A stretch of 64,000 nt of DNA, from contig NZ_VHSF01000002.1 in the NCBI RefSeq assembly GCF_007050985.1, positions 124,001 through 188,000 on the forward strand, given 5' to 3'. The translations under genes were made by a program, and so were the position numbers. The notes under the pieces were generated by a model. It was not told where the DNA came from. It did no database searches and saw nothing but the letters and a program-made list of their open reading frames with translations. Positions within the stretch are counted from its first letter, which is position 1. Every line of letters begins with the position of its first letter. Positions 18,015-34,900 of this stretch are shown here, one piece after another. This DNA comes from Christiangramia sabulilitoris. GTDB taxonomy: Bacteria; Bacteroidota; Bacteroidia; Flavobacteriales; Flavobacteriaceae.

Positions 18015-19292
18015 CTAAAGCTGTTGCAACTTGTTCTTGATCATGTTCAGAGAAAGATTATCCTTACTTCCCGAATGCGTGTGCTTCATTCCTTCTGAAG
18101 CTTCATAAGCACCATTTTGAACCTGCTCCCCTATTATTTTATAAGCATCCCTGAATGATTTACCGTTGATAACCAGTTCGTTTATGCTGTCTACAGTAAA
18201 CAGGTATTTATACTTTTCATCCCTAAGATCTATTTCCTTCACCTTGATTTGAGCAATAGAGTGGGTGAAAACATCCAGTATCTCTTTCATATTCTCAACC
18301 GCGTAAATGCTGTTCTCCTTGATTAGCTGAAAATCCCTGTGGTAACCACTAGGCAGGTTGTTGGTGATAAGGATCATTTCATTAGCAATGGCCTGTAATT
18401 TGTTACATTTTCCTCGAACCAGTTCAAAAACATCGGGATTCTTCTTATGGGGCATAATACTGGAACCTGTGGTAAGCTCATCGGGGAAAGTGATGAAATC
18501 AAAGTTCTGACTCATGTACAAACAAATATCCATCGCGAACCTGGATAATGTGTTAGCCAGTGAGGCGATATTTGAAGTAACGGTTCGTTCACATTTCCCC
18601 CTGCTCATCTGTGCCGCCACCACATTGAATTTCTGGGTTGAAAAGCCTAATTCTTTAGTGGTGAATTCCCTGTCTATAGGAAATGAGGAGCCATAACCTG
18701 CTGCGGAACCTAAAGGATTCTGGTCTACGATTTTTAAACCGGCTTCAAGCAGATAAAGGTCATCAATTAGCAATTCGGCGTAAGCTGAAAACCACAATCC
18801 AAAGGAAGAAGGCATTGCTACCTGCAGGTGGGTATAGCCAGGAAGGACCTTATCCTTATGCTCATCGGCCAGGCTTAGAAGAACATCTATCAGGCTTTTA
18901 GTTTTTCGGGAGATCTGTAGCAGGTTTTCTTTAAAATATAACTGCTGGGCTACCAAAACCTGATCGTTTCTTGATCTGGCAGTATGGATCTTTTTTCCGG
19001 TATCACCGAGTTTTTTGGTTAGTTCGAATTCTATTTTAGAATGAACATCTTCAAAATCCTCTTCGATCTGAAACTCACCCTTTTCAAGCTGATCTTTCAG
19101 GACATCAAGTTCTGCTAAAAGTGATTCTACTTCTTGTTCCGTCATTATTCCAACCTTTCCCAGCATTTTAGTATGTGCTTTGGAAGCCTGAATATCATAT
19201 TCGGCCAGATGCATATCCAGTTCACGATCATTGCCTACGGTGAACTTTTCTATCTGTTTGTCTATTGAAATACCTTTATCCCAGAGTTTCAT
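18015..19292 (-). CDS. argH: Argininosuccinate lyase
   Basis: Last step of arginine synthesis: splits argininosuccinate into arginine and fumarate. The fumarase/aspartase-superfamily motifs are present: EDVHSKIEFELTKKLGD, GKKIHTARSRNDQV, LPGYTHLQVAMP and the signature TGSSIMPHKKNPD with the catalytic Ser loop. Length is 425 residues, slightly shorter than the ~460 usual, mainly at the C-terminus. It is the last gene of the arginine operon, separated from argE by a 316-bp spacer made largely of repeats. Confidence 0.96.
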   Translation of the reverse strand: MKLWDKGISIDKQIEKFTVGNDRELDMHLAEYDIQASKAHTKMLGKVGIMTEQEVESLLAELDVLKDQLEKGEFQIEEDFEDVHSKIEFELTKKLGDTGKKIHTARSRNDQVLVAQQLYFKENLLQISRKTKSLIDVLLSLADEHKDKVLPGYTHLQVAMPSSFGLWFSAYAELLIDDLYLLEAGLKIVDQNPLGSAAGYGSSFPIDREFTTKELGFSTQKFNVVAAQMSRGKCERTVTSNIASLANTLSRFAMDICLYMSQNFDFITFPDELTTGSSIMPHKKNPDVFELVRGKCNKLQAIANEMILITNNLPSGYHRDFQLIKENSIYAVENMKEILDVFTHSIAQIKVKEIDLRDEKYKYLFTVDSINELVINGKSFRDAYKIIGEQVQNGAYEASEGMKHTHSGSKDNLSLNMIKNKLQQL

Positions 19293-19311
19293 ATTATCTA
19301 ATTTAATATTT

Positions 19312-19380
19312 CGTCATCCTGTCCCGATACTTCGGGAGTTTCAGGATCCCAAGAAAAGCTGAAATAAATTCAGCTTGACG
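19312..19380. repeat. Palindromic element CGTCATCC...GCTTGACG, rearranged form
   Basis: It shares both ends with the copies at 22642-22709 and 27048-27116, but the internal hairpins are exchanged. Here the CCCGA...TCGGG hairpin sits inside the CATCCTG arm, and a GCTGAA/TTCAGC hairpin fills the other arm. Confidence 0.75.
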
Positions 19381-19398
19381 CATTGTTCCAATTAATGC

Positions 19399-19423
19399 TG
19401 TTGCACTGAGCCTGTCGAAGTGC
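19399..19423 (+). repeat. 25-bp direct repeat, copy 1
   Basis: Begins TGTTGCACTGAGCC and ends GTCGAAGTGC; the GCACT...AGTGC ends can pair. Identical over all 25 positions to 19582-19606, 183 bp away. Confidence 0.85.
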
Positions 19424-19506
19424 CTTTTATAAGTTGCCACTAATGCACGAATAACAATTTATTAGTACATCCGTGGCTGACCTTAGTATAAACTTATTTT
19501 ATTCAT

Positions 19507-19568
19507 TGTCATTCCGAAGGAGTTTACGACTGAGGAATCTCAGATTTCTCACTATGGTCGAAATGACA
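19507..19568. repeat. 62-bp TGTCATTCCG...AATGACA element, copy 1
   Basis: Terminal inverted repeat TGTCATT/AATGACA with an inner GAGGAATCTCAGATTTCTC hairpin. It matches the copy at 22561-22622 at 56 of 62 positions by eye. Confidence 0.8.
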
Positions 19569-19581
19569 TTATTTAATTATT

Positions 19582-19606
19582 TGTTGCACTGAGCCTGTCG
19601 AAGTGC
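19582..19606 (+). repeat. 25-bp direct repeat, copy 2
   Basis: Identical to 19399-19423. It abuts the 3' end of argE. Confidence 0.85.
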
Positions 19607-19608
19607 GA

Positions 19609-20676
19609 TTATTTTAGCGCCTTCTCAAGCAGCTTTATATACTTTTCTATTCCTTCTTCAATCTCCTTTACATAAATAAATTCATCTGCCGAATGAGATC
19701 TGGTGGAATCACCGGGGCCTAACTTTAAAGACGGACAACTCAACATAGCCTGATCACTCAAAGTTGGAGAACCATAAGTATCCATTCCAAGGTCGATGCC
19801 GGCCTTAACCAATTCGTGATCCAACGGAATGGATGATGAATTTAATCGTAGACTTCGGGCATTGATCTCGTCAACCGGAGCATTATCCTTTAAGATCTGC
19901 TCGATCTCCTTATTGCTGTATTTATCATTTACCCTAACATCGATGACCAGATGCGTTTTTGCCGGCACTACATTATGCTGACTCCCGGCATTGATCTGAG
20001 TTACGGTCACCTTTACTTCTCCAAGGTTTTTAGAAACTTTTTCCAATTTGAAGTTTTCAAACCACTCCAGAACTTTCGCAGTCTTATATATCGAATTATC
20101 AGTATTTGGATGAGCGGCATGCGAGGGAGTGCCCTGCACCACCGCATCGAAAACCACCAGGCCCTTTTCAGCAACCGCGAGGTTCATAAGTGTTGGTTCT
20201 CCTACAATGGCAACATCTATTTTCGGGATTTCCGGAATTAAAGCAGCAATTCCATTCTTACCGTTGATCTCCTCTTCAGCCGTTCCCGCAAACAGAATAT
20301 TATGACTTAGATTTTCTTCTGAATACAAATAAGTGAATGTTGCTAACAGGGAAACAAGACATCCCCCGGCATCGTTACTACCTAAACCATATAATTTGCC
20401 ATTTTCGATCTCTGCTTTGAACGGATCTCTGGTATAGGCCGAATTCGGTTTTACCGTGTCGTGGTGAGAGTTAAGTAAAAGTGTAGGCTTGGTCTTGTCA
20501 AAATGCTGATTAACGGCCCAAACGTTATTTAAAAACCTCTTATGCGGAATTTTATGCTGTTTGAACCAATTCTCAAGGAGATCTGCTGTTTTATCCTCCT
20601 CACCGGAAAGTGACTGGGTCTGGATCAGGTTTTTAAGTAATTCTACTGCCGCTTGCTGAAGTTGTTCTAACTGCAT
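19609..20676 (-). CDS. argE: N-acyl-ornithine/N-acyl-citrulline deacylase (M20 family)
   Basis: Zinc-dependent amidohydrolase of 355 residues. Motifs: LLLNSHHDTVKP with the first metal His and Asp, GLGSNDAGGCLVSLL with the bridging Asp, and FAGTAEEEINGKNG with the catalytic Glu pair. A dimerisation domain lies at about 165-280. Because this operon uses an N-acyl-ornithine transcarbamylase, the expected substrate is N-acyl-citrulline rather than acetylornithine, giving citrulline for ArgG. That reassignment is inference from context. The start ATG overlaps the argB stop by one base (TAATG). Confidence 0.88.
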   Translation of the reverse strand: MQLEQLQQAAVELLKNLIQTQSLSGEEDKTADLLENWFKQHKIPHKRFLNNVWAVNQHFDKTKPTLLLNSHHDTVKPNSAYTRDPFKAEIENGKLYGLGSNDAGGCLVSLLATFTYLYSEENLSHNILFAGTAEEEINGKNGIAALIPEIPKIDVAIVGEPTLMNLAVAEKGLVVFDAVVQGTPSHAAHPNTDNSIYKTAKVLEWFENFKLEKVSKNLGEVKVTVTQINAGSQHNVVPAKTHLVIDVRVNDKYSNKEIEQILKDNAPVDEINARSLRLNSSSIPLDHELVKAGIDLGMDTYGSPTLSDQAMLSCPSLKLGPGDSTRSHSADEFIYVKEIEEGIEKYIKLLEKALK

Positions 20677-21452
20677 TATTCTACAATTTTGGTATGGATA
20701 GAATTCTTCTTCAATAACCCGGCACCTCCCAGAATTACTGCAGAAACTCCTTTATTTATTGCTTCAAAGCAATTATGAAGTTTAGGCAACATTCCGTCTG
20801 TGATCACTTTTGAAGCAACTAGTTCTTTATAGTTATCAGAATTCAACTCCGGGATTACAGATTCTTCATCTTCAATATCGGTCAAAACACCTTTTTTCTC
20901 CGAACAGTAATAAAGCTTTACCTCAAAAGACTTACTCATCTCAACCGCAATCTCTGAAGCAACTGAATCTCCGTTAGTATTTAACAAAACACCTTCCTCA
21001 GTACATGAAATTGCCGAAAATACCGGTACCATATCCATAGCAAGACATGAATTAATGAAATCTGAATTCACTTTTTCAATATCCCCTACAAAACCATAAT
21101 CGATCTCTTTTACTTCTCTTCTTTTTGAGATCAGCACCCTTCCATCGGCCCCACATAATCCGATTGCATTTTGTTTCCTGGCCTGGAGGTGAGCAACGAT
21201 ACTTTTATTCAATAGTCCGCCATACACCATGGTTATTACTTCCATAGAGTCTTTATCGGTGATCCTTCTGCCATCGACCATTTTAGTCTGAAAACCAAGT
21301 TTCGCCGCAACCTCGGTGGCCTTATTACCTCCTCCATGAACAAGGATCTTTGGACCTTCCAATTGCACGAAGTCTTCCAGAAAGGAATTCAGAGAAGTTT
21401 CATATTCAATGAGCTTCCCTCCTATTTTTATGACTTTCAGGGTTTGTTTCAT
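20676..21452 (-). CDS. argB: Acetylglutamate kinase (N-acylglutamate kinase)
   Basis: Phosphorylates the gamma carboxyl of N-acylglutamate. Amino-acid-kinase motifs: VIKIGGKLIE, ILVHGGGNKATEVAAKLG, and AVILGGAGLL near the end. I choose the start at ATG 21452 (MKQTLKVIKIGG); an ATG 27 bp upstream only adds MHSWPKKIN, which lies in unconserved spacer. Length from this start is 258 residues, normal for the short, arginine-insensitive class without the N-terminal helix. The natural acyl group (acetyl or succinyl) cannot be read from sequence. Confidence 0.93.
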   Translation of the reverse strand: MKQTLKVIKIGGKLIEYETSLNSFLEDFVQLEGPKILVHGGGNKATEVAAKLGFQTKMVDGRRITDKDSMEVITMVYGGLLNKSIVAHLQARKQNAIGLCGADGRVLISKRREVKEIDYGFVGDIEKVNSDFINSCLAMDMVPVFSAISCTEEGVLLNTNGDSVASEIAVEMSKSFEVKLYYCSEKKGVLTDIEDEESVIPELNSDNYKELVASKVITDGMLPKLHNCFEAINKGVSAVILGGAGLLKKNSIHTKIVE

Positions 21453-21514
21453 ATTTATTTTTTTTGGCCACGAATGCACTAATATTTTTATCTTTCTATC
21501 GACTCTTTAATTTA

Positions 21515-21587
21515 GTCATTGCGAGCCTGCGCCTAGCAGGCGTGGCAATCTCAACTTAGGAGATTTCTCACTGCGTTCGGAATGACA
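21515..21587. repeat. Palindromic repeat GTCATTGCGAGCC...GGAATGACA
   Basis: Complementary ends (GTCATT/AATGAC) with inner hairpins CCTGCGCCTAGCAGG and AACTTAGGAGATT. It fills the argF'-argB spacer and ends 5 bp before the argF' stop codon. Confidence 0.75.
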
Positions 21588-21592
21588 TTCAA

Positions 21593-22543
21593 TTATTCCT
21601 TTCTACACTCCAGAATCCTCTTTAAAACCGCCTGTGCGGCAAAGGTCCTGTTATTAGCCTGGTGGATCACGATCGAGTTTTCACTATCAAGAACATCATC
21701 TGCAATCACCACATTTCTTCTCACCGGGAGGCAGTGCATCACCTTCGCATTATTAGTGTTTTTCAATTTAGCCTGATCAATTGTCCAGTTCTTTTCTACA
21801 TTTAAAACCTGGCCATAATCCTCATAACTACTCCAGTTCTTCACATAGACGAAATCTGCATCCTTGAAAGCCTTTTCCTGGTCATGTTCAACTTTCACCC
21901 CATTTCTAACATGGGGCGCAAGATCATAACCTTCCGGATTGGTGATCACAAAATCGACTTCCAGGCGCTGCATCATTTCTGTAAAAGAATTCGCTACAGA
22001 TTGCGGTAAAGCTTTTGGATGTGGCGCCCAGCTTAAAACAACTTTAGGCCTTACAGCTTTGTTGAATTCCTGAATGGTGATCGCATCGGTAAGAGCCTGT
22101 AAGGGATGTCCAGTGGCACTTTCCAGGTTCACAATTGGCACCGAAGCATATTTTTTAAAACTATTCAGCACATGTTCAGATTCATCTTTTTCCTTATCCT
22201 TCAGCCCCGGAAAAGCTCTAACGGCGATAATATCGCAATATTGAGAAAGTACGGCCGCGGCTTCTTTGATATGCTCGGCTTTATCTGAATTCATCACCGC
22301 CCCATCCTCAAATTCCAGCGCCCAGCCATCTTTATCGGCATTCATAACCATTACTTCCATACCCAATAACTTTGCAGCTTTTTCAGTGCTTAAGCGTGTA
22401 CGCAGACTGTTATTAAAAAAGAGCATGCCCAGGGTTTTACCTTTTCCTGGTTTTGATGATGGATTTTTAGATTTCAGGCTTCTTGCTTCCCTGATGATGG
22501 TTTCGACATGATCTATGTCTGATAATGTGATGTAGTTCTTCAT
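21593..22543 (-). CDS. argF': N-succinyl/N-acetyl-ornithine carbamoyltransferase
   Basis: Carbamoylates an N-acylated ornithine instead of free ornithine. The carbamoyl-phosphate loop is FFNNSLRTRLST, and the family-specific GWALEFEDGAVMNSDKAEH, SWAPHPKALPQSVANSF and HCLPVRRN are present. The 316-residue length and these motifs closely resemble the Bacteroides fragilis succinylornithine enzyme and the Xanthomonas acetylornithine enzyme. The residue reported to separate them (Pro90 in the former, Glu92 in the latter) aligns with Ala89 here. Ala leaves room for the larger succinyl group, so succinylornithine is favoured but not proven. Confidence 0.92.
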   Translation of the reverse strand: MKNYITLSDIDHVETIIREARSLKSKNPSSKPGKGKTLGMLFFNNSLRTRLSTEKAAKLLGMEVMVMNADKDGWALEFEDGAVMNSDKAEHIKEAAAVLSQYCDIIAVRAFPGLKDKEKDESEHVLNSFKKYASVPIVNLESATGHPLQALTDAITIQEFNKAVRPKVVLSWAPHPKALPQSVANSFTEMMQRLEVDFVITNPEGYDLAPHVRNGVKVEHDQEKAFKDADFVYVKNWSSYEDYGQVLNVEKNWTIDQAKLKNTNNAKVMHCLPVRRNVVIADDVLDSENSIVIHQANNRTFAAQAVLKRILECRKE

Positions 22544-22560
22544 ACTAGAATTTAGTTAGT

Positions 22561-22622
22561 TGTCATTCCGAAGAAGTTTAAGACTGAGGAATCTTAGATT
22601 TCTCACCTTGTTCGAAATGACA
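22561..22622. repeat. 62-bp TGTCATTCCG...AATGACA element, copy 2
   Basis: Same length and ends as 19507-19568, with six differences by eye. It lies in the argD-argF' spacer, next to the element at 22642. Confidence 0.8.
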
Positions 22623-22641
22623 TTCTTCTATTTTATTTAAC

Positions 22642-22709
22642 CGTCATCCTGAATTTATTTCAGGATCTCAGAGAAGCTGAATCTCCCGATGCTTCGGGAC
22701 AGCTTGACG
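22642..22709. repeat. Palindromic element CGTCATCC...GCTTGACG overlapping argD 3' end
   Basis: 68-bp element with CCTGAA/TTCAGG and CCCGA...TCGGG hairpins. Thirty-nine bases at its right end are identical to the inverted copy at 27048-27116. Its right-hand 50 bp are translated as the C-terminus of argD. Confidence 0.85.
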
Positions 22710-23856
22710 TAAGTATATTTTTATTTTGGTCCTTCAAGGCTGCTTTTAGCGCACTAAAAAAACTTTCAAAATGTTCTTTTTTAATATTTAATGGTGGTAG
22801 GATACGCAGCAACTTCTTATTAGAAGATGCCCCGGTAAAAATCTGATGTTCAAATAAAATTTCTTTCCTGAGGGCAGCGATCTCAAAATCGAATTCCAGC
22901 CCGATCATCAAGCCTCTTCCTTTGATCTTTTTGATCTCTGGAATTTTAGTCGCTTCTGCCTTTACAAATTCTGAAACCTCAGCTGCATTTTCCATCAAAT
23001 TTTCGTTCTGGATGATATCCAGAACTGAGATTCCTGCAGAACAGGCTAGATGGTTTCCTCCAAAAGTAGTTCCCAACATGCCATATTTAGGCTGAATATT
23101 ATTATCGGTCAGGATCCCGCCAATCGGAAATCCGTTGCCCATTCCTTTAGCCATAGTGATAATATCGGGCCTTATGCCATGTTTCTGAAATGCGAAAAAA
23201 TCGCCAGTTCTTCCGTAACCAGATTGTACCTCATCGGCAATGAGCATTACCTGATTTTCCTTACACAATTCAGCCGCCGATCTGTAAAATTCAGATTCAG
23301 CTTCATCAAGTCCTCCAACTCCCTGAATAACTTCAAAAATAACCGCGGCCACATCTCCTTTTTCGATCTCATTTTTCAAAGATTCAGTATCGTTAAAAGC
23401 CAGTTTCGTTGCTTTATGACCAAGATTGAAAGGAGCCTTTATAGATTCATTATCGGTAATGGCTACAACTCCGGAGGTTCTTCCGTGGAAAGCATTTTCA
23501 AAATAGATGATCCTGTCTTTCCCGGTTTGAAAAGAGGCAACCTTTAAGGCATTTTCATTCGCTTCTGCTCCTGAACTGCACAGAAATAGACTATAATCCT
23601 TAACTCCCGAAACTTTTTCCAGTTTATCAGCAAGTTCCTGTTGTAGTGGATTTTTGATTGAATTCGAGTAGAATCCTAGTTTCGCTGCCTGTTCCTGAAT
23701 AGATTTCACATATTCCGGGTGTGCATGCCCAACCGAGATCACCGCATGCCCGCCATAAAGGTCCAGATACTTTTTCCCGGATACGTCAAAAACATAACAA
23801 CCTTCACCTTTCACCGGAGTGATATCATATAGTGGATAAACATCAAATAATTCCAT
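22660..23856 (-). CDS. argD: N-acyl-ornithine aminotransferase with repeat-derived tail
   Basis: PLP-dependent class III aminotransferase converting N-acyl-glutamate semialdehyde to N-acyl-ornithine. Motifs: YLDLYGGHAVISVGHAHPEYV, LFLCSSGAEANENALK, IYFENAFHGRTSG, LIADEVQSGYGRTG and TMAKGMGNGFPIGG with the PLP lysine. Length is 398 residues. The last 16 (TSSCPEASGDSASLRS) and the stop codon are encoded by the dispersed palindromic repeat at 22642-22709, so the ancestral protein probably ended near residue 382. It starts 2 bp after the proC stop. Confidence 0.95.
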   Translation of the reverse strand: MELFDVYPLYDITPVKGEGCYVFDVSGKKYLDLYGGHAVISVGHAHPEYVKSIQEQAAKLGFYSNSIKNPLQQELADKLEKVSGVKDYSLFLCSSGAEANENALKVASFQTGKDRIIYFENAFHGRTSGVVAITDNESIKAPFNLGHKATKLAFNDTESLKNEIEKGDVAAVIFEVIQGVGGLDEAESEFYRSAAELCKENQVMLIADEVQSGYGRTGDFFAFQKHGIRPDIITMAKGMGNGFPIGGILTDNNIQPKYGMLGTTFGGNHLACSAGISVLDIIQNENLMENAAEVSEFVKAEATKIPEIKKIKGRGLMIGLEFDFEIAALRKEILFEHQIFTGASSNKKLLRILPPLNIKKEHFESFFSALKAALKDQNKNILTSSCPEASGDSASLRS

Positions 23857-23858
23857 AA

Positions 23859-24653
23859 TTACTGATCTGAGATATTATTAATTTTTTTGAATGAGGCCTG
23901 AATCCCTTTGATCAATGAGGAACTAAGTCCGTTATGTTCCATTTCATTAAGACCTTCTATGGTACAGCCTCTGGGCGTAGTCACTTTATCGATCTCCTCT
24001 TCAGGATGCTTACCAGATTCGATCAACAGACTTGCAGCACCCAGACAAGTTTGCATAGAGAGCTCCTGAGCGTCTTTCGCGTCGAAACCGAGTTGTACTG
24101 CTCCCTGAGTGGTTGCGCGTATCAAACGCATCCAGAATGCTACTCCACTGGCGCAGATCACTGTAGCAGCCTGCATCTTATTTTCAGGAATAATGATACT
24201 GCTACCAAGCCTATTGAAAATAGCTTCGGCAATGGCGATCCTCTTCTGTCCTTTCTCATTACTGCATAGACAGGTCATCGACTTTCCAACAGCAATCGCA
24301 GTATTAGGCATTGATCTTATGATAAAATGGTCTTCCCCAACGATGCTTTCCATGCGTGGAATTTTGAACCCGGTGACGGTAGAGATCAAAACATGTTTAT
24401 CGGTGAGTTCATCTTTTATCTCGTAAAGAATCTTTTCCAGTTGAGTGGGCTGAACGGCAAATATCAGGATGTCTGATTCTTTTACCACTCTTAGATTATC
24501 TGAAGTTAAGCTAACTTTTGAATATTCAGAAAAATCCTGAATGTCATCAAGCTTACGTTTGCTCAGATAAAGCGTGGTAAAGGCATTACTAAAGATGAGT
24601 CCCTTCGCAATGGACACTCCCAGATTTCCTGCACCAATAATTCCTATTTTCAT
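23859..24653 (-). CDS. proC: Pyrroline-5-carboxylate reductase
   Basis: Reduces pyrroline-5-carboxylate to proline with NAD(P)H. The Rossmann start MKIGIIGAGNLGVSIAKGL, SDILIFAVQP, RSMPNTAIAVGKSMTCL and the C-terminal TTPRGCTIEGLNEME signature are all present; 264 residues is normal. It sits inside the arginine operon, 2 bp before argD. This arrangement puts proline and arginine synthesis, both drawing on glutamate, on one transcript. A role on an N-acylated intermediate is conceivable but nothing in the sequence demands it. Confidence 0.93.
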   Translation of the reverse strand: MKIGIIGAGNLGVSIAKGLIFSNAFTTLYLSKRKLDDIQDFSEYSKVSLTSDNLRVVKESDILIFAVQPTQLEKILYEIKDELTDKHVLISTVTGFKIPRMESIVGEDHFIIRSMPNTAIAVGKSMTCLCSNEKGQKRIAIAEAIFNRLGSSIIIPENKMQAATVICASGVAFWMRLIRATTQGAVQLGFDAKDAQELSMQTCLGAASLLIESGKHPEEEIDKVTTPRGCTIEGLNEMEHNGLSSSLIKGIQASFKKINNISDQ

Positions 24654-24684
24654 ATCAATATTCTTTTTAAATCGTCCAGCTTAC

Positions 24685-24717
24685 AGACCTCACAGGTTTC
24701 GCAAACCTGTGAGGTCT
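24685..24717. repeat. Perfect 15-bp inverted repeat with 3-base loop
   Basis: AGACCTCACAGGTTT, loop CGC, then its exact complement. It is located in the argC-proC spacer 31 bp upstream of proC. Such a stem would be very stable in mRNA, but no T tract follows on the minus strand, so it is not a simple terminator. This hairpin type recurs in flavobacterial genomes (from memory). Confidence 0.85.
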
Positions 24718-24740
24718 CTCTACCCTAATTATATTTAACC

Positions 24741-24820
24741 GTCATTGCGAGCGGAGTGTTCACGAAGCGACGCAATCTTAAGTTTAAGAACTACCACAAT
24801 TCGACTGCGCTCATTGTGAC
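24741..24820. repeat. Palindromic repeat GTCATTGCGAGCGG...TTGTGAC
   Basis: Relative of 21515-21587, sharing GTCATTGCGAGC and a CGCAATCT block. Its inner arm GAGCGGAGTG...ACTGCGCTC can pair. It lies in the argC-proC spacer. Confidence 0.65.
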
Positions 24821-24879
24821 AAAGCTTAAACCGATTCTTCGCAGGACATTTCTCAATACTCAATACTCACTACTCAATT

Positions 24880-25845
24880 CTAAAAATAACTCGCTTTTAA
24901 ATTCAAGCCCATTTTTTCATCCAGGCCGAACATTAGGTTCATATTCTGTACCGCCTGACCGGAAGCTCCTTTCAACAAATTATCAATTATACTGGTCACC
25001 AGCAATTTATCACCAAACTTCTGTAATCTTAAAAGACATTTATTCGTATTGACGATCTGTTTTAAATGCAATTCCTCATCGGTTACAAAGGTGAAAACTG
25101 AATCTGCGTAAAAATCTTTATAGATCTTTTTGGCTTCTTCCAGGCTTCCTGAAAACTTCGTATAAGCCGTAGCATGAATTCCTCTTGAGAAATTTCCCCT
25201 GTTCGGAATAAAGTACACCTCAGCTTCATGATCAGATTGCAGCTGCTTTAAACTCTGGCCGATCTCGTTCAGATGCTGGTGCTCAAATGATTTATAAGCT
25301 GAAAAATTATTATCCCTCCACGAAAAATGAGTAGTTTCTGAAAGCGAAGTTCCCGCTCCGGTTGCTCCGGTAACTGCATTCACATGAACTTCATCCTTTA
25401 AATGTCCATTTTTTGCCAGAGGAAGGATTGCCAGGGTGATCGCTGTGGCGAAACATCCGGGATTTGCTATAAAATCAGCCGACTTAATTTCCGCATTATT
25501 CAATTCCGGAAGCCCATAAACAAAAGAGTGATCATCAGATTTCTGTCTGAAATCGGTGCTCAGATCAACGATCTTTGTCTTTTCTGAAAACTGATTTTCA
25601 GCGAGGAACTTTTTTGAATTCCCATGCCCCAGACAAAGAAAAACAACGTCTACTTCTTTATTGATCTCATTGGTAAATTGAATTTCGGTCTCGCCAATAA
25701 GGTCCTGGTGAATACTATGAATCGGTTTTCCTGGTTGAGAAGTACTAAACACGAAATTCAGATTCACCCCAGGATGATTCAGAAGAATCCTGATCAATTC
25801 TCCGGCCGTATACCCTGCGCCACCTATTATTCCCGCTTCGATCAT
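24880..25845 (-). CDS. argC: N-acyl-gamma-glutamyl-phosphate reductase
   Basis: NADPH-dependent reduction of N-acylglutamyl phosphate to the semialdehyde. Shows AGIIGGAGYTAGELIRILLNHP for the nucleotide fold, VFLCLGHGNSKKF, the catalytic Cys in FIANPGCFATAITLA, GATGAGTSLSETTHF and GASGQAVQNMNLMFG at the end. Length 321 is usual for the type 1 short form. It overlaps argG by 4 bp (start 25845, argG stop at 25842), a tight junction with no room for repeats. Confidence 0.96.
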   Translation of the reverse strand: MIEAGIIGGAGYTAGELIRILLNHPGVNLNFVFSTSQPGKPIHSIHQDLIGETEIQFTNEINKEVDVVFLCLGHGNSKKFLAENQFSEKTKIVDLSTDFRQKSDDHSFVYGLPELNNAEIKSADFIANPGCFATAITLAILPLAKNGHLKDEVHVNAVTGATGAGTSLSETTHFSWRDNNFSAYKSFEHQHLNEIGQSLKQLQSDHEAEVYFIPNRGNFSRGIHATAYTKFSGSLEEAKKIYKDFYADSVFTFVTDEELHLKQIVNTNKCLLRLQKFGDKLLVTSIIDNLLKGASGQAVQNMNLMFGLDEKMGLNLKASYF

Positions 25846-27029
25846 ATATCCTGATTTACGTGTTGATAGATCTTTCCGGAGTTCGAAAGGATCTTGATAA
25901 ATCCTTTGGCATCATCTGCGGTCCAGGCTTTATTCTCTTCTCCATAGTTTCCGAAACTGCTGTTCATAAGGTCATTCGAAGATTTGACTCCATCAAAAGT
26001 AAATCTGTAAGGATGAAGAGTGACGAATACATCACCGGTCACCTTAGCCTGAGAACTTTCAAGCTGTGCTTCAAAATCACGCATTACAGGATCCAGGTAT
26101 AATCCTTCATGCAGATGCATCCCATACCAGTTCGAAGTATAATCCTTATGTTGAAGCTGCCATTTGCTCAAGGTATGTTTCTCTAACAAATGATGTGCTT
26201 TGATAGTGATCAAGGCAGCAGCGGCTTCAAAACCGACTCTTCCCTTGATCCCAATTATGGTATCACCCACATGAATATCCCTGCCAATGGCATATTTTGA
26301 GGCGATGCTTTCCAGAATTTCTATGTTCTTTTCAGGATAATTTTCCTCGCCATCAATTGCGGTAAGCTCACCTTTGGTGAAACTAAGTTTTACCTGTTTT
26401 GGTTCTTTTTCTTTTAACTGAGAAGGGTAAGCTTCTTCCGGTAAGGCTTTTTCTGAGGTCAGTGTTTCTGCTCCTCCAACACTGGTGCCCCAGAGTCCTT
26501 TATTTACAGAATATTTGGCTTTCTCCCAGTTCATCTCCACGCCTTTGCTATTAAGATACTCGATCTCTTCCTGTCTGCTAAGCTGTTTGTCCCTGATTGG
26601 AGTGATGATCTGAATATCTGGCGCAATGATCTGGAAGATCATATCGAATCTCACCTGGTCGTTCCCGGCTCCGGTACTCCCATGAGCGATATACTTTGCT
26701 CCTACTTTCTTGGTATAGTATACGATCTCGATCGCCTGGATGATCCTTTCTGCACTTACCGAAAGTGGATAGGTATCATTTTTAAGAACATTTCCAAAAA
26801 TGAGATACTTCACTACTTTTTGATAAAAGGAAGAAATGGCATCGATATTCTTATAACTGCTGGCACCTATCTTTTTTGCATTATCGCCTATCTTCTTAAT
26901 TTCTTCTTCTGAAAAACCACCGGTATTCACGCTTACCGCATGTACTTCAAATCCTTCTTCTTCAGATAAATATTTCGCGCAATAGGAGGTATCCAATCCT
27001 CCGCTGTATGCTATAACTACTTTTTTCAT
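25842..27029 (-). CDS. argG: Argininosuccinate synthase
   Basis: Joins citrulline and aspartate with ATP. The N-type ATP pyrophosphatase loop AYSGGLDTSYCAKYL is at the N-terminus, with ISIAHGST-type AHGSTGAGNDQVRFD, WGTSVGGAETL and GRVGFEAAAALI further on. I choose the start MKKVVIAYSGG at 27029, giving 395 residues. An upstream in-frame ATG at 27068 would add 13 residues, the first part of which comes from the palindromic repeat at 27048-27116, so it should be disregarded. Confidence 0.96.
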   Translation of the reverse strand: MKKVVIAYSGGLDTSYCAKYLSEEEGFEVHAVSVNTGGFSEEEIKKIGDNAKKIGASSYKNIDAISSFYQKVVKYLIFGNVLKNDTYPLSVSAERIIQAIEIVYYTKKVGAKYIAHGSTGAGNDQVRFDMIFQIIAPDIQIITPIRDKQLSRQEEIEYLNSKGVEMNWEKAKYSVNKGLWGTSVGGAETLTSEKALPEEAYPSQLKEKEPKQVKLSFTKGELTAIDGEENYPEKNIEILESIASKYAIGRDIHVGDTIIGIKGRVGFEAAAALITIKAHHLLEKHTLSKWQLQHKDYTSNWYGMHLHEGLYLDPVMRDFEAQLESSQAKVTGDVFVTLHPYRFTFDGVKSSNDLMNSSFGNYGEENKAWTADDAKGFIKILSNSGKIYQHVNQDI

Positions 27030-27047
27030 TTTTATATATTCTTCAAA

Positions 27048-27116
27048 CGTCAAGCTGTCCCGAAGCATCGGGAGATTCAGCTTCTCAATAGATCCTGAAA
27101 CAAGTTCAGGATGACG
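27048..27116. repeat. Palindromic element CGTCAAGC...GGATGACG, inverted copy
   Basis: Reverse complement of the 22642-22709 element; 39 bases are identical at one end and a few substitutions plus one extra base occur at the other. It lies 18 bp upstream of argG. Confidence 0.85.
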
Positions 27117-27180
27117 AGTTATTTATATTTATTCCTTTTTTGCCACAAATTCACTAATAATTTACGTCATTCTATATTTC

Positions 27181-27226
27181 CCTTCCTTTTAAGGAGGGGT
27201 GTCCGACATTGTCGGACGGGGTGGTC
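27181..27226. repeat. Hairpin-rich repeat CCTTCC...GTCCGACATTGTCGGAC...GGTGG
   Basis: Contains CCTTCCTTTTAAGGAGGGG and GTCCGACA/TGTCGGAC-type hairpins. It reaches into the stop codon of the GNAT gene (27225-27227), so this repeat supplies or borders the end of that gene. I recall similar repeats in other Bacteroidota, which would need a database check. Confidence 0.6.
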
Positions 27227-27869
27227 AGTTTTCTTTCGCAGCCTTTTCCTTCTTATAAAAAAGCGTTTGTTTAATATGTTTTAATCTTTGAAATGCCTTG
27301 TCGTTGAATTTGCTAATGCTATTCGAAGTTTTCATATTTTCTTTTTTCTTTTCCGGGTCGTATAACATCCCTGTGCATAGGCACATTTTGTGTTCAGTCC
27401 GGGTAAGGATATCATAATTTTTACAGGTCTGACAACCTTTCCAGAAGGTCTCATCATCCGTTAATTCAGAAAAGGTAACCGGTTGGTATCCCAGTTCGTA
27501 GTTGATCTTCATAACCGCCAAACCGGTGGTGATCCCAAAGATCTTGGCATGGGGATATTTGGTCCTGGAGTGTTTGAAGATCACTTTTTTGATCTCCTTG
27601 GCCAGCCCATGATTCCTGAAATCGGGATGCACAATAAGACCGGAATTAGCCACGTATTTATCATGACTCCAGGTTTCTATATAGCAAAAACCGGCAAATT
27701 GCTCCCCTTCAAGAGCGATAACGGCATTTCCTTTTTCCATCTTATTAATGATGTATTCAGGAGTTCTGCGTGCAATACCGGTCCCACGAACCTTTGCCGA
27801 CTCTTCGATAGTATTACAAATGATCTCAGCGTAAGAAGCATGAGATTTATTAGCAATGATAATTTTCAT
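27225..27869 (-). CDS. GNAT acyltransferase, likely N-acylglutamate synthase, with Cys cluster
   Basis: First gene of the arginine operon, 214 residues. The GNAT core is seen in AVIALEGEQFAGFCYIETW, the acyl-CoA loop NSGLIVHPDFRNHGLAKEIKK and AVMKINYELGYQPVT. After the fold come four Cys at 146, 149, 163 and 165 (C-x2-C-x13-C-x-C), which could bind zinc, and a basic tail. No argA or argJ is present in the window, and all other steps to arginine are, so this protein is the best candidate for acylating glutamate. The acyl donor (acetyl- or succinyl-CoA) and the Cys role are inference. Confidence 0.75.
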   Translation of the reverse strand: MKIIIANKSHASYAEIICNTIEESAKVRGTGIARRTPEYIINKMEKGNAVIALEGEQFAGFCYIETWSHDKYVANSGLIVHPDFRNHGLAKEIKKVIFKHSRTKYPHAKIFGITTGLAVMKINYELGYQPVTFSELTDDETFWKGCQTCKNYDILTRTEHKMCLCTGMLYDPEKKKENMKTSNSISKFNDKAFQRLKHIKQTLFYKKEKAAKEN

Positions 27870-27929
27870 CTGCTAAGGAATTAAATTGAAAAAAAATTTG
27901 ATTTGGGGGATTCGAGAGCGGAACCGGAC

Positions 27930-27998
27930 TCACCTAAGTTCCATAGATATATAGACGCACTTACGTGCGGGGGAAACGGCGACGCAGAGAAGTAACAT
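27930..27998 (-). other. Short open frame in the second half of the arg leader
   Basis: Twenty-two codons from ATG 27998 to TGA (MLLLCVAVSPARK...). It contains a CGCAC-GTAA-GTGCG hairpin at 27956-27969. There is no independent sign of translation; it is listed because the region is otherwise unexplained. Confidence 0.25.
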
Positions 27999-28055
27999 CA
28001 GAAAATGCTCTGATATTAAGGTTATATGCTATGCTGTTTAAGTATTTCAAAATGG

Positions 28056-28148
28056 AAAAAATCAAATAATATTAATGGAAAAGGATTTCAGGGGCACAAC
28101 CTAGAAGCGGCGGCGGGGCCTGACATTGAAACGGGGTAATATTATTTG
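28056..28148 (-). terminator. Candidate attenuator stem with T tract in arg leader
   Basis: A perfect 12-bp inverted repeat CAAATAATATTA (minus strand, 28148-28137) / TAATATTATTTG (28074-28063) is followed by A and six T on the minus strand. The 5' arm is made of codons 6-9 of the Arg-rich leader frame. Between the arms TCAGG can pair with CCTGA. The loop is long (62 nt), which is unusual for an intrinsic terminator unless the inner pairing folds it. Confidence 0.55.
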
Positions 28149-28163
28149 TTTGATAAAAATCAT
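28101..28163 (-). CDS. Arg-rich leader peptide of the arginine operon (putative)
   Basis: ATG at 28163-28161, 20 codons and TAG at 28103-28101. The peptide ends PRFNVRPRRRF, with Arg at positions 11, 15, 17, 18 and 19, the last three as consecutive CGC codons. It stands directly upstream of nine arginine genes, and its codons 6-9 form one arm of the stem at 28063-28148. This is the textbook layout of ribosome-controlled attenuation. A ribosome stalled on the first Arg codons would cover that arm and keep the stem open. Caution: a TACATTTG box lies only 4 bp before the ATG, so the message is either nearly leaderless or comes from ilvA read-through. Confidence 0.6.
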   Translation of the reverse strand: MIFIKQIILPRFNVRPRRRF

Positions 28164-28167
28164 ATTT

Positions 28168-28195
28168 CAAATGTACATAAAATTTTAACCTGCAA
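28168..28195 (-). promoter_or_regulatory. Bacteroidota-type promoter for the arginine operon
   Basis: On the minus strand TTG (28195-28193), 17 bp, then TACATTTG (28175-28168), matching TTG-N17-20-TAnnTTTG. It begins 7 bp after the ilvA stop codon. No terminator separates it from ilvA, so read-through from the ilv operon is also possible. Confidence 0.55.
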
Positions 28196-28202
28196 GCACT
28201 TA

Positions 28203-29477
28203 CTAGATTAAAAATTGAAATAAATTTGGATTATCGTTTAGATATTCCCCGTAAAAATTCTTCTTTTTCATTCTATCTACCAGTGGTTTAAAGTCGTTTG
28301 GATCTTTTAACTCTATCCCAACCACCGCAGGTCCGTTAGATCTATTGTGCTTTTTAGAATATTCAAAATGAGTTATATCATCATTAGGTCCAAGAACTTT
28401 AGCCACAAACTCTTTTAAAGCACCCGCTCTCTGAGGAAATACCACCACGAAATAATGCTTCAATCCTGAATATAAAAGAGCTCTTTCCTTAATTTCAGCC
28501 ATCCTGATGATATCGTTATTGCTTCCGCTAACGATACATACCACATTCTTACCTTTAATTTTTTCTGAATAAAGGTCTAATGCTGAAATAGCCATTGCTC
28601 CGGCTGGCTCTACCACCATCGCATCCTGGTTATAAAGATCAAGAATGGTCTGGCAAATCTTCCCTTCGGGAACCGTGATCATTTCGTCGAGGTTCTTTTT
28701 ACAGATCGCGAAATTCCTGGCACCAACTTTCTGAACAGAAGCACCATCTACAAACCGCTCGATATTCTCTAGTTCTACAACTTTACCTTCCCGTAAGGAA
28801 GTTTTCATCGAAGGTGCTCCTTGAGGTTCTATACCTATGATCTTGGTATTAGGCGATAGTTCCTTGAATATGGATGAAACCCCGGCAAGTAATCCACCGC
28901 CTCCAAGAGGAGCAAAAATATAATCTATAGGTTCATCAGCCTGTTCTAAAATTTCCAAAGCTATGGTCGCCTGGCCTTCTATTACTTTTTCATCATCAAA
29001 TGGATGAATAAATACAAGGCCCTGCTCTTCCATCTGCTTCATTGCACTCTTAAAAGAATCGTCATAAGTATCTCCTTTAAGAACCACATCAATCCATTCT
29101 CCTCCAAACATCTGGGTTTGCTCAACCTTTTGTTTTGGAGTAGTTCCGGGCATATAAATTACTCCCTTAACCTTTAATTTATTACAGGCAAAAGCAACTC
29201 CCTGGGCGTGATTCCCTGCACTGGCACAGATTACTCCCTTTTTTAATTGCTCTTGCGGTAAGCTGGAAATCTTGTTATAAGCACCCCGAATTTTATAAGA
29301 TCTTACCTGTTGCAGGTCTTCTCTTTTCAGCATGACATTGGCCTCAAAGCGTTTGCTATAAGTAAAGGATTCGGCTAAAGGAGTTTTTAAAACAACTTTG
29401 GAAATTCTTTCAGCAGCCTGTTTAACGGCTTCAAGGCTTGGTATATATGTTTTATCTTTTTCCAGCAAAGTATTCAT
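28203..29477 (-). CDS. ilvA: Threonine ammonia-lyase (biosynthetic)
   Basis: PLP enzyme that converts threonine to 2-oxobutanoate, entering the isoleucine pathway. Motifs: REDLQQVRSYKIRGAYN with the PLP lysine, CASAGNHAQGVAFAC, FAPLGGGGLLAG and CIVSGSNNDIIRM. Length is 424 residues, with a single short ACT-like regulatory domain from about residue 335 (HYFVVVFPQRAGALKEFVAKVLGP). This is shorter than the ~510-residue enterobacterial form with two such domains. Last gene of the ilv operon; its ATG overlaps the ilvC stop by one base. Confidence 0.95.
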   Translation of the reverse strand: MNTLLEKDKTYIPSLEAVKQAAERISKVVLKTPLAESFTYSKRFEANVMLKREDLQQVRSYKIRGAYNKISSLPQEQLKKGVICASAGNHAQGVAFACNKLKVKGVIYMPGTTPKQKVEQTQMFGGEWIDVVLKGDTYDDSFKSAMKQMEEQGLVFIHPFDDEKVIEGQATIALEILEQADEPIDYIFAPLGGGGLLAGVSSIFKELSPNTKIIGIEPQGAPSMKTSLREGKVVELENIERFVDGASVQKVGARNFAICKKNLDEMITVPEGKICQTILDLYNQDAMVVEPAGAMAISALDLYSEKIKGKNVVCIVSGSNNDIIRMAEIKERALLYSGLKHYFVVVFPQRAGALKEFVAKVLGPNDDITHFEYSKKHNRSNGPAVVGIELKDPNDFKPLVDRMKKKNFYGEYLNDNPNLFQFLI

Positions 29478-30946
29478 TACGCGTATATTTTCTTCATTGC
29501 GGTCATCGCAGATCTTAATTTAGCTCCAACCTCCTCAACAGGATGATTTTTTACTTCCTCATTAACTTTTTCCAGTTTCTGCTCATCAACATTTGCACCT
29601 TCAAATTTCTTGCCGGCAACTTCAGGCTCAAGAGAATTCACATAATCCTTGATCAAAGGTTTTGCAGCATGATCAAACAGGTAACAACCATATTCAGCTG
29701 TATCTGAAATTACCCGGTTCATCTCATACAATTTCTTTCGGGCGATGGTATTTGCGATAAGCGGAGTTTCATGAAGGGACTCATAATAAGCCGATTCTTC
29801 AATGATTCCTGCATCTACCATGGTCTCGAAAGCCAGCTCCACTCCAGACTTTACAAAAGCGACGAGCAATACTCCCTTATCGAAATATTCCTGTTCGCTG
29901 ATCTCTTTAGAAGTCGCTTCGGTCTTTTCAAAAGCGGTGTTCTCGGTTTCAGCTCGCCAGGTATGCAATTCATTATCGTCATTCGCCCAGTCTTTCATCA
30001 TGCGACTGCTGAATTCTCCGGATATGATATCATCCATATGCTTTTGAAATAATGGGCGCATGGTTTTCTTAAGATCTTCGGAAATTTCATAAGCTCTCAA
30101 TTTTGCAGGATCAGAAAGGCGATCCATCATCTGAGTGATTCCGCCATGTTTCAATGCTTCCGTAATAGTTTCCCAGCCATACTGAATCAATTTCGCAGCA
30201 TAGTTTGGATCTACTCCTTCGGCAACCATCTTATCGAAAGTCAAAATTGAGCCTGTTTGAAGCACTCCACAAAGAATGGTTTGCTCACCCATAAGATCTG
30301 ATTTCACTTCAGCAACGAAAGAAGATTCCAGTACTCCTGCCCTATGACCACCGGTGGCGTAAGCATAGGCTTTTGCCCATTCAAGGCCAATGCCTTGAGG
30401 GTCATTTTCAGGATGCACGGCGATAAGCGTAGGTACTCCAAAACCTCTTTTATATTCTTCACGAACTTCAGATCCCGGACATTTAGGTGCGACCATGATC
30501 ACGGTCACATCTTCACGGATCTTCATTCCCTCCTCCACGATATTGAAACCATGGGAATAAGAAAGTACCGCTCCTTTTTTCAAATGAGGCTGAATAGCTT
30601 TGATTACAGAAGTATGTTGCTTGTCTGGAGTTAGATTGATCACCAGGTCTGCTTCTGGAACCAGTTCTTCATAAGTACCCACTTTGAAATCATTTTCAGT
30701 GGCATTTTTCCACGACTGGCGCTTTTCCTTGATCGCTCCTTCTCTTAAAGCGTATGAAATATCGAGTCCGCTGTCGCGCATATTGAGTCCCTGGTTGAGA
30801 CCCTGGGCGCCGCAGCCCACGATGACTATTTTCTTACCATACAGGGCTTCTGCTCCATTACTGAATTCATCCAGTTCCATGAAACGACAGGTTCCTAATT
30901 GATCTTGTTTTTCAGCTTTAGAAAGGCTGTTAAAATAGTTGGTCAT
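29477..30946 (-). CDS. ilvC: Ketol-acid reductoisomerase, class II (long form)
   Basis: Rearranges and reduces acetolactate or acetohydroxybutyrate with NADPH and magnesium. At 489 residues it is the class II form with a duplicated helical domain, like E. coli IlvC. Motifs: [54 protein letters not shown] and [13 protein letters not shown] with the metal residues. It overlaps ilvN by 4 bp and ilvA by one base, consistent with coupled expression. Confidence 0.97.
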
Positions 30947-31482
30947 GATAATGAGTTTGTTGTATTAAATTTTTCTAGTATGCCTGAAATAGGCATTTCA
31001 TTTTTTGTTACCGCGATGGTTCCAGATCTTACAAATTGCATCAATCCATAAGGTTTCAATGTTTCGTAAAGAGCATCTACCTCAGTTCGTTTTCCGGTCT
31101 TTTCGATCACGAAAAATTCCTTGGTAACTGTCACAATGCGGGCATTGGTTTCCTTAATGAAGTCCTGAATATTATGATCGTCTAAAAAGTCCTGAGACTT
31201 AATCTTATAAAGAGCGGTTTCCTGATAGATGGTTTCAGCATCGGTGTGATAAAATGCCTTGATCACTTCTATTTGTTTCTCGATCTGGCCCACGATCTTT
31301 TTAATCTGTTCCTCGGTCACATTCACAATGATGATAAACCGCATCACTTCAGTCACCTCACTAGGCGAAGCGGTGATACTCTCAATATTGATGTGCCTTT
31401 TTAAGAAAATGGCCGCTATCCTGCTCAATAAACCAAGGTTATTCTCGGTATATATTGATACTGTATAATTATTTTTTTCCAT
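30943..31482 (-). CDS. ilvN: Acetolactate synthase small (regulatory) subunit
   Basis: Binds valine and activates the catalytic subunit. The N-terminal ACT domain is clear ([36 protein letters not shown] is the start of this domain's span, residues 6-42). A second ALS_ss C-terminal domain follows from about residue 85. Length 179 is typical of full small subunits. The start overlaps the ilvB stop by one base and the end overlaps ilvC by 4 bp. Confidence 0.94.
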
Positions 31483-33215: not shown

Positions 33216-33226
33216 AATTCACCGTA

Positions 33227-34900
33227 TTAAAATTCATCTGTAACACATCCCTGTGAAGCTGATGCCACTGTTTTTGCGTATTTATAGAGTACACCTCCGT
33301 TTACCTTAAAAGCAGGCGCTTTCCAGGCTTTCTGTCTTTCACTAATTTCTTCATCGCTTAAATGCGCTTCGATCCTGTTGGTTTCAGCATTGATACTGAT
33401 CTCGTCACCATCTTTAAGAAGTCCTATAAGCCCACCTTCCTGAGCTTCTGGAGTGATATGACCCACTACAAAACCGTGGGTTCCCCCTGAAAATCTTCCG
33501 TCTGTAATAAGGGCGACTTCTTTTCCAAGACCAGCGCCCATGATCGCTGAAGTAGGTTTCAGCATTTCGGGCATTCCCGGCCCTCCTTTGGGGCCCTCAT
33601 AGCGAATGACGACTACGTCTCCTTTTTGAACCTTACCGGAGGAAATCCCTTCGTTAGCTTCAAATTCACCATTAAAAACTCTGGCCTTTCCTGTAAATTT
33701 CAATCCTTCCTTACCCGTTATTTTAGCGACGGAACCTTCAGAAGCCAGATTACCGTATAGAATTCTGATATGTCCGGTGGCTTTGATAGGTTTTTCTACA
33801 GGATGAATTACATCCTGGTCGAAAGGCAAAGGATCAACATTTTCAAGGTTTTCAGCAATAGTTTTCCCGGTCACGGTCATACATTCGCCATGAAGTAATC
33901 CTTTTTCCAACATATATTTCATAACCGCGGGAATTCCTCCTATCCTATGAATGTCTTCCATTAGATACTTTCCGCTGGGCTTGAGATCTGCCAGAAATGG
34001 CGTCTCTTCACATATCCTCTCAAAATCTTTTAATCCAAAACTGATATCGGCTGCTTTGGCGATCGCTAAAAAGTGCAGTACCGCGTTGGTAGAACCTCCC
34101 AGCACCGTGAGTAAACGCACGGCATTTTCAAATGACTTGGCCGTCACGATGTCCTTTGGTTTCAGATCATTTTCCAGCAAATATTCCATTGCCTGTCCTG
34201 CCTTAATACTTTCCTGAACTTTTTCGGGTCCGGTCGCCGGATTGGAACTATTGAAAGGAAGGCTCATCCCCAATGCTTCAATTGCTGAAGCCATGGTATT
34301 GGCAGTATACATTCCTCCACAAGCTCCTGCACCGGGGCAGGCTTTTTCTATGACCGCCTGGTATTCTTCTTCCTGCATTTCCCCGGAAACCTTAGATCCC
34401 CAGGCTTCAAAAGCGGAAACCACATCCAGTTTTTTACCATTATGGCAACCCGAGGCGATAGTACCCCCATAAACCAAAACTGACGGTCGGTTTAATCTTA
34501 ACATAGCCATTAATGCTCCGGGCATATTCTTATCGCAACCAACAACAGTCACCAGCCCGTCATAAGACATTCCGGCCACCACCGTTTCCATGGAATCTGC
34601 GATAATATCCCTGGAAGGAAGCGAATAGCGCATTCCCGGCGTACCCATGGAAATACCATCACTCACCCCAATGGTGTTAAAAATGAGTCCATTCAAGCCT
34701 GCATTCTGAGTTCCTTTTTTAACTTCTTTAGCAAGATCGTTCAGGTGCATATTACAGGGATTACCTTCATAACCGGTACTTCCTATTCCCACAAATGGTT
34801 TTTTGAGATCTTCTCTATTTAGTCCAATTGCGTGAAGCATTGCCTGCGAAGCAGGTTGCGAATCACTTTGGGTTATTTTGCTGCTGTATTTGGTGTTCAT
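33227..34900 (-). CDS. ilvD: Dihydroxy-acid dehydratase
   Basis: Iron-sulfur enzyme dehydrating dihydroxy acids to the keto acids of valine and isoleucine; its product also feeds leuA and panB. Motifs: [35 protein letters not shown] and [18 protein letters not shown] carry the cluster Cys, and [25 protein letters not shown] the C-terminal signature. Length 557. First gene of the ilv operon, preceded by a 254-bp region with two palindromes. Confidence 0.97.

Follow-up and report, generated by a model that had tools for sequence, protein, structure and literature searches.

The arginine operon and the region upstream of it

The window, that is, the whole 64,000-nucleotide stretch of the Christiangramia sabulilitoris genome analysed here, carries nine arginine-synthesis genes on the minus strand: a GNAT-family acetyltransferase gene, argG, argC, proC, argD, a gene for an N-acetylornithine-type carbamoyltransferase, argB, an argE/dapE-like gene, and argH. 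The original prediction, made from the DNA letters, had placed an arginine-rich leader in front of nine arginine genes, and ORF and family searches recovered all nine downstream of it. The carbamoyltransferase scores above its NCBIfam cut-off; the argG, argD, and argE-like assignments have scores below the curated NCBIfam cut-offs. The first gene product is a putative N-acetylglutamate synthase. proC sits within the arginine operon, and between 13451 and 34900 the leucine, arginine, and isoleucine/valine genes adjoin one another, the leu and ilv genes being putative assignments from their sequences. The features of the locus are as follows (window coordinates).

18015..27068, minus strand: argG, argC, proC, argD, carbamoyltransferase, argB, argE/dapE-like, and argH genes (ORFs and family searches)
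27225..27869, minus strand: GNAT-family acetyltransferase, first gene of the operon (similarity and family searches)
27920..27942, minus strand: hairpin P2, GGAACUUAGGUGAGUCCGGUUCC, with a 6-bp stem, a 5' bulge, GG/CC, and the loop UGNGU (alignment, covariation)
27956..27969, minus strand: hairpin P1, CGCAC-GUAA-GUGCG, its loop containing the leader B stop codon (alignment, covariance model)
27961..28050, minus strand: leader B, 29 codons from a TTG start, MKYLNSIAYNLNIRAFSDVTSLRRRFPRT and stop (translation; start placed at a TTG conserved in relatives)
27993..28018, minus strand: hairpin P0, within leader B and upstream of its Arg run (inverted-repeat pair)
28056..28061, minus strand: run of six T after stem A, not kept across the genus (read from the sequence)
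28063..28074, minus strand: 3' arm of stem A, TAATATTATTTG, with its end 12 nt upstream of the leader B start (inverted repeat, fold, genus alignment)
28101..28163, minus strand: leader A, 20 codons, MIFIKQIILPRFNVRPRRRF and stop, leaderless or nearly so by motif (ORF translation, relatives)
28137..28148, minus strand: 5' arm of stem A, CAAATAATATTA, codons 6-9 of leader A (inverted repeat, fold, genus alignment)
28168..28175, minus strand: -7 box TACATTTG of the TAnnTTTG type (sequence motif; position conserved in relatives)
28195-28193, minus strand: TTG, a possible -33 element (sequence motif)

Among named genomes, the GNAT protein has its closest matches in Christiangramia/Gramella (up to 95%), followed by Salegentibacter, Gillisia, Salinimicrobium, and Zunongwangia. 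In a family sample of 199 Flavobacteriaceae genomes, one per genus, the GNAT first gene has a match in 130, and the upstream DNA of all 130 loci was scanned for short Arg-rich ORFs. These ORFs are of two kinds, A and B, and up to two of them precede the arg operon in tandem across the genera of the family; the window has both. For the family alignment (A1), 112 of the 130 loci had at most two mismatches to the loop word of P2, and 111 were aligned after one (L115) was judged spurious. Counts within the genus and within the family are phylogenetically non-independent throughout. A search for similar leaders upstream of ilvD and leuA in the window gave no convincing candidate.

Two tandem arginine-rich leaders

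The 20-codon minus-strand frame described in the original prediction reads as claimed, since 28163 to 28101 translates as MIFIKQIILPRFNVRPRRRF and stop, with Arg at positions 11, 15, 17, 18, and 19. The alignment of relatives that had been proposed as a check confirms that the frame is conserved: all 24 members of the Christiangramia-like genus have a leader A with at least three Arg, and an A-like ORF occupies a single fixed place in 50 of the 111 genera. Wherever they lie, A-like ORFs occur in 59/111 genera (3/111 in the antisense-strand control), the nine off the fixed place probably being tails of upstream genes or chance. In relatives, leader A ends about 130 nt upstream of hairpin P1. 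Leader A alone among the short ORFs of the 64-kb window combines a residue run above the thresholds with a TAnnTTTG motif at most 25 nt upstream, and the 126-nt leader has a fold z-score of -3.5, equalled by one of 200 dinucleotide shuffles.

The -7 box TACATTTG lies 4 nt upstream of the leader A start. This proximity and the missing ribosome-binding site had been listed as weak points; they are instead conserved features, as the TAnnTTTG motif stands 2-15 nt upstream of the first leader start in exact form in 39 of 110 genera and, when one mismatch is allowed, in 92 of 110 (the control gave a single exact window, out of an unstated total). Its spacing to the start is mostly 4 nt for A (10/15) and 7 nt for B (19/24). 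Because the motif adjoins the first leader start, the leaders appear to be leaderless or nearly so, and transcription would begin at or beside the ATG of leader A. The phylum Bacteroidota largely dispenses with Shine-Dalgarno initiation. In Flavobacterium psychrophilum, leaderless mRNAs are reported to make up only 5.5% of the mapped mRNAs (PMC9723704), so they are present in Flavobacteriaceae, though uncommon.

Leader B, which was overlooked in the original prediction, ends inside hairpin P1. A B-type ORF ending at P1 is found in 24/24 genus members, the start being set at an inner in-frame TTG for two of them (L150 and L154). In relatives its stop lies within P1 or slightly (a few codons) beyond, in most cases at a distance of about 90 nt from the gene, and is usually preceded by RRP. 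Over the 15 codons upstream of P1, the B frame contains a stop in none of the 111 genera, compared with 56% and 55% for the other two frames, and its Arg content per 15 codons is 3.28, the other frames having 0.69 and 0.48. As the frame is stop-free in 111/111 genera and enriched in Arg, we regard it as coding. Two adjacent Arg stand within the final four codons in 100/111, the P1 codons specify RP in 105/111, and the stop codon lies within the P1 loop in 94/111; ahead of the Arg run the peptide varies greatly. The genus has CGCAC/GUGCG as its P1, and in 23 of its 24 members the last two residues are RT instead. Leader B and the P1-P2 element are conserved more widely than leader A, the B frame being open in 111/111 genera and A standing at its fixed place in 50/111. 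Hairpin P0 shares its place among the genomes with both leaders but differs in sequence (GUUAUU..AAUAAC or UAUCAG..CUGAUA), as judged by eye.

The P1-P2 RNA element

A covariance model (R1) matches the window at 27981-27915 with 63.7 bits, the next best match scoring 8.9 bits, and the element has one copy in its own genome. Across the 111 genera of A1, the P1 consensus is CGCCC-GUAA-GGGUG (CGCAC/GUGCG in the window), and P2 consists of a six-pair stem, GG/CC, and the loop UGNGU, with a 5' bulge of 1-2 nt in 99/111 (a bulged A in the window). The structure is paired in 93.1% of the cells of A1, and its covariation of 0.248 exceeds that of shuffled alignments (0.128; 0/500), slid structures being far poorer. 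P2 has two-sided changes in six of its eight pairs, and its stems take 53 distinct forms, all six pairs being formed in 95/111. In P1 only one of five pairs shows two-sided changes, a low covariation that is expected because P1 also codes. RNAalifold alone finds P2 on A1 and misses P1. Every aligned sequence has GGUG.G.CC, above a stem that varies freely, although the invariance of the loop is partly due to the choice of loci, which were first picked by the loop word. G-U pairs are frequent in P2, which suggests that it acts as RNA rather than as a DNA palindrome.

Downstream of P1 comes a U-rich linker. P2 gives way to a pyrimidine patch, beyond which the DNA is rich in A and poor in G (7% G between P2 and the gene), and the distance from P2 to the first gene ranges from 38 to 229 nt in the 111 loci. 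Over the span from P1 to P2, no helix alternative to them stood out among the best-scoring column pairs. A search of 12 loci against Rfam 15 gave no match at E <= 0.5, placing the element outside the Rfam 15 families (T-box, riboswitch, Flavo-1, and others), and window positions 24000-34000 had seven matches, all under the gathering score and none in the leader.

R1 has a match in 123 of the 199 family genera, namely 123 of the 138 with argG and none of the 61 without. The count of 138 refers to strong argG matches; at E <= 1e-3 it is 151, weak matches to other enzymes included. The 61 genera without a strong argG match, some of them with incomplete genomes, raise the possibility of frequent arginine auxotrophy in Flavobacteriaceae. 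All 80 named relatives picked by GNAT similarity, which overlap in part with the A1 genomes, carry the element once each, just 5' of the gene. Fifteen of the 138 argG-positive genera have no genome-level match, including six of the eight in which the first gene has been exchanged (see below).

Order and phylum samples were scored with stricter filters. The order sample (296 genomes) gave 22 same-family matches and one further match (G707, 25.3 bits), and the phylum sample (395 genomes) 16 same-family matches and one further match (G598, 27.7 bits), which lies antisense over the end of an ORF that we take to resemble a molybdopterin gene. Both further matches were treated as chance, as were weak second matches in two family genomes (G043, L174; G075, L175).

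Stem A and the proposed terminator

The original prediction reported a perfect 12-bp inverted repeat with codons 6-9 of the leader as one arm, and six T after the other. Both are there: CAAATAATATTA pairs with TAATATTATTTG, the repeat extends to 15 nt at 93%, and the T run occupies 28061-28056. In the genus alignment (A3; 21 of 24 members, with L140, L141, and L142 left out, which have the same arrangement and stem), 97.6% of 252 cells are paired. In the covariation check proposed for this stem, two pairs are compensated within the genus (C-G to A-U and A-U to G-C), but these double changes are confined to one group of four species, apparently a single lineage, and changed pairs are no more numerous than in shuffles (241/500).

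In 49 genera, early leader A codons are able to pair with the DNA just upstream of the B start, with arm-to-arm duplexes at a mean z of -1.1 against shuffled sequences and below -2 in 7/49. RNAalifold recovered P1 alone, and neither stem A nor P0, from 45 A-region sequences (45 of 49 segments aligned, with L002, L106, L107, and L118 left out; L028 was removed by hand as an upstream-gene tail, and L002 and L108 were trimmed to an internal start). As the duplexes across genera are little better than shuffles and RNAalifold misses the stem there, stem A is likely to be real within the genus and is only suggested for the wider family.

The further claim that stem A and the T run form a terminator was not supported. 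Three species have CATCCC in place of the T run (L145, L147, L153) and in a fourth it is interrupted (L150, CTTTTCC); the outermost pair of this AU-rich stem is its sole G-C pair, the loop measures 62 nt, and a terminator scan of the leader region found no intrinsic terminator.

The idea that a ribosome stalled at the first Arg codons covers the 5' arm would hold for codon 11 and not for codons 15-17. In a stall simulation of 22 of the 24 genus members (L136 and L152 left out), a stall at codon 11 made the B start more open on average (0.65, up from 0.45), with a rise of more than 0.1 in 18/22 species; a stall at codon 16, within the 15-17 range, freed the B start in 3/22. Arg11 is present in 17/24 genus members and missing in 7/24.

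Arginine codon usage and the missing repressor

Both leaders are strongly biased towards CGY, which accounts for 90% of the Arg codons in leader B and 81% in leader A, compared with 19% in 16 window genes, which favour AGA/AGG. In 30 genera, the CGY share is 86% in B and 31% in GNAT and the next frame (Fisher p 1e-33, relatedness ignored). The bias of B is forced in part by P1 pairing, whereas that of A is not. In theory, attenuators use the codons whose tRNA is the first to lose its charge, and the CGY bias of the leaders fits this.

The Pfam family Arg_repressor (PF01316) is found in one of the 199 family genera (G174, 26.9 bits), leaving 198 without a detectable ArgR; as a control, the same search was positive in 9/14 genomes including a Bacteroides, eight of them above the cut-off. 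It gave no ArgR match in the window's genome, which places the operon outside an ArgR regulon.

A probable ribosome-sensing leader and its alternatives

The reading frames, their arginine content and codon bias, the covariation of P2, the linkage to the arg operon, and the near-absence of ArgR are established by comparison of genomes, and leader control by sensing of Arg-tRNA is well supported on this comparative footing. The leaders and the RNA element probably let the ribosome sense an arginine shortage and turn the operon on where ArgR is missing, and we favour a two-stage arrangement as the probable form of this control. Shortage of Arg-tRNA would slow the translation of both leaders at their CGY-type codons. 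In the first stage, a ribosome delayed over the opening codons of leader A would sit on the 5' arm of stem A and make B translatable; uncovered, stem A would fold just 5' of the B start. In the second, a ribosome held in the terminal Arg run of B would keep P1 open. With ample arginine, the ribosome at the stop codon in the P1 loop would leave, P1 would close, and P1-P2 would form the OFF state. Genera without leader A would use the second stage alone. The output would most likely be premature factor-dependent termination (Rho or another factor), with mRNA decay or translation as less likely candidates. The licensing of B by A is put forward as a hypothesis only, because Arg11 is present in 17/24 genus members and a stall at codon 16 is ineffective (3/22).

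Of the features that mark an attenuator, the locus has an ORF of regulatory codons and linkage to the operon, while the scans brought out no intrinsic terminator with a U tract and, from P1 to P2, no alternative helix as antiterminator. At 38-229 nt from the first gene, P2 would hardly act on one ribosome site, and this spacing would suit an effect on the whole operon, for example factor-dependent termination, which has a precedent in Salmonella speF (PMC6386406). The invariant loop of P2 exceeds what attenuation requires and counts against the two-stage model. More tentatively, and at somewhat less than an even chance, the arginine repressor may have been replaced family-wide by a cascade of two leaders in which A licenses B, with P1-P2, a hitherto undescribed RNA class with a UGNGU loop on a stem with a bulged A, as its output, no intrinsic terminator, and probably a dedicated trans factor or Rho.

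Control of mRNA stability or of the translation of the first gene, rather than of transcription, is unlikely. The scan found no intrinsic terminator, and there are precedents in Salmonella speF and S. aureus rbfL (PMC6386406, PMC13009471), yet the element is kept before a different first gene in two genera and at widely varying distances from the start codon, for which an operon-wide effect is the better fit. It is rather improbable that P1-P2 is the true regulator, as an RNA that binds a protein or a ligand, such as a repressor site or a small riboswitch, with the leader peptide secondary to it. The invariance of GGUG.G.CC above a changing stem and the wider spread of the element compared with leader A speak for this, as does the likeness of P2 to protein-binding hairpins of the type with a bulged A, 2 bp, and a pentaloop. 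However, the invariance comes partly from the picking of loci by the loop, P2 is small for an aptamer, the conserved Arg-rich frame and the CGY bias are left unexplained, and six genera with exchanged first genes keep a P1-like hairpin and a B-type leader while losing the loop motif.

TnaC and SpeFL arrest terminating ribosomes on tryptophan and ornithine, respectively. A similar arrest of the terminating ribosome by the B peptide (...RRRP and stop), on free arginine or ornithine, would agree with the frequency of RP at the P1 codons and of a stop immediately after it, but we consider it highly improbable: the residues before the Arg run are very variable, and the RT ending in the genus with a CGCAC/GUGCG P1 means that RNA pairing explains RP better than the peptide does. 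Least probable is a classical attenuator in which stem A and the T run act as a terminator hidden or freed by a ribosome on leader A alone, because, although stem and T run are present and the stem is kept in the genus with two compensated pairs, four species have lost the T run or have it interrupted, the stem is AU-rich with a 62-nt loop and goes undetected by the terminator scan, and in 61 of the 111 genera with B and P1-P2 no leader A was found at the usual site.

Relation to known systems

The his, trp, ilv, and thr operons have ribosome-mediated transcription attenuators. The proposed two-stage arginine leader shares with them a short ORF rich in codons for the product, directly 5' of the operon, overlapping hairpins, and the use of sensitive codons. 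It differs in that arginine would be the residue sensed, two tandem leaders are present that are leaderless or nearly so by motif, no intrinsic terminator was found, and a hairpin with a fixed UGNGU loop is part of the design. Arginine operons are elsewhere controlled according to arginine supply by ArgR/AhrC, a protein repressor on DNA; control by arginine supply would be common to both, whereas ArgR/AhrC is a DNA-bound protein, of a family detected here in 1/199 genera.

Two parallels use Arg codons as sensors. The Salmonella speF leader orf34/SpeFL relays arginine supply through consecutive Arg codons to Rho-dependent termination without an intrinsic terminator (PMC6386406). The consecutive Arg codons in a leader ORF and the lack of an intrinsic terminator are shared; orf34/SpeFL differs, as described there, in regulating ornithine decarboxylase and in being a single leader. 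A Pfam search with five of our leaders, in which the HMMER filters drop weak matches, found no family at E <= 10, including the speF leader family DUF2618. S. aureus rbfL likewise senses arginine restriction through Arg codons and differs in lowering expression by blocking the ribosome site of a biofilm regulator (PMC13009471). Within the same family, leader-peptide attenuation has been proposed before amino-acid operons of F. psychrophilum from transcript data, although the accessible part of that study names no arginine operon (PMC9723704).

Among the best-ranked literature matches, subscription journals being mostly outside the scope of the search, we found no account of such an arginine leader or of the P1-P2 RNA. 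Leader-peptide attenuation is a known kind of control; what is new here, to our knowledge, is the tandem arrangement of the leaders, their arginine target, the wide spread of the RNA element, and the lack of a terminator. The system offers a candidate for the control of arginine synthesis in a family with 198/199 genera lacking a detectable ArgR, and brings to light a widespread structured RNA that Rfam 15 does not contain. Together, tandem leaders, CGY bias, and the missing terminator provide a clean test of ribosome control of expression in a phylum that makes little use of Shine-Dalgarno initiation.

Exchanged first genes

Eight argG-positive genera have no match to the GNAT gene. In three of them (G084, G152, and G017), another GNAT-like gene comes first, followed by argG and, in G084 and G152, argC. 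These alternative proteins are 48-59% identical to each other in the pairs compared and 23% identical to that of the window over 126 residues. Two of the exchanged GNAT-like genes lie at L172 1354-1938 and L173 1455-2048, with a Pfam match for L173 only. In the remaining five genera, the first genes are alike at the N-terminus of their products.

Despite the exchanged first gene, G084 and G152 (2/8) retain the leaders and P1-P2. With the search filters off, the six other genera revealed decayed versions, in which a P1-like hairpin is followed, where P2 would stand, by a plain one. Their B-type leader starts with GTG, has 1-3 Arg, and ends in RP before the stop in 5/6, and the P2 loop motif is lost. 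The same six genera (L177 1137-1400; L178-L182) have a near-invariant 5' RNA, ATTAACGAAAGGGGCTYRYGCCGACGATTTAGAGTTAAT, with complementary ends, before the GTG-started leader. A comparison of this region with Rfam gave nothing above a gathering score; the 5' RNA may be a distinct regulator of this operon.
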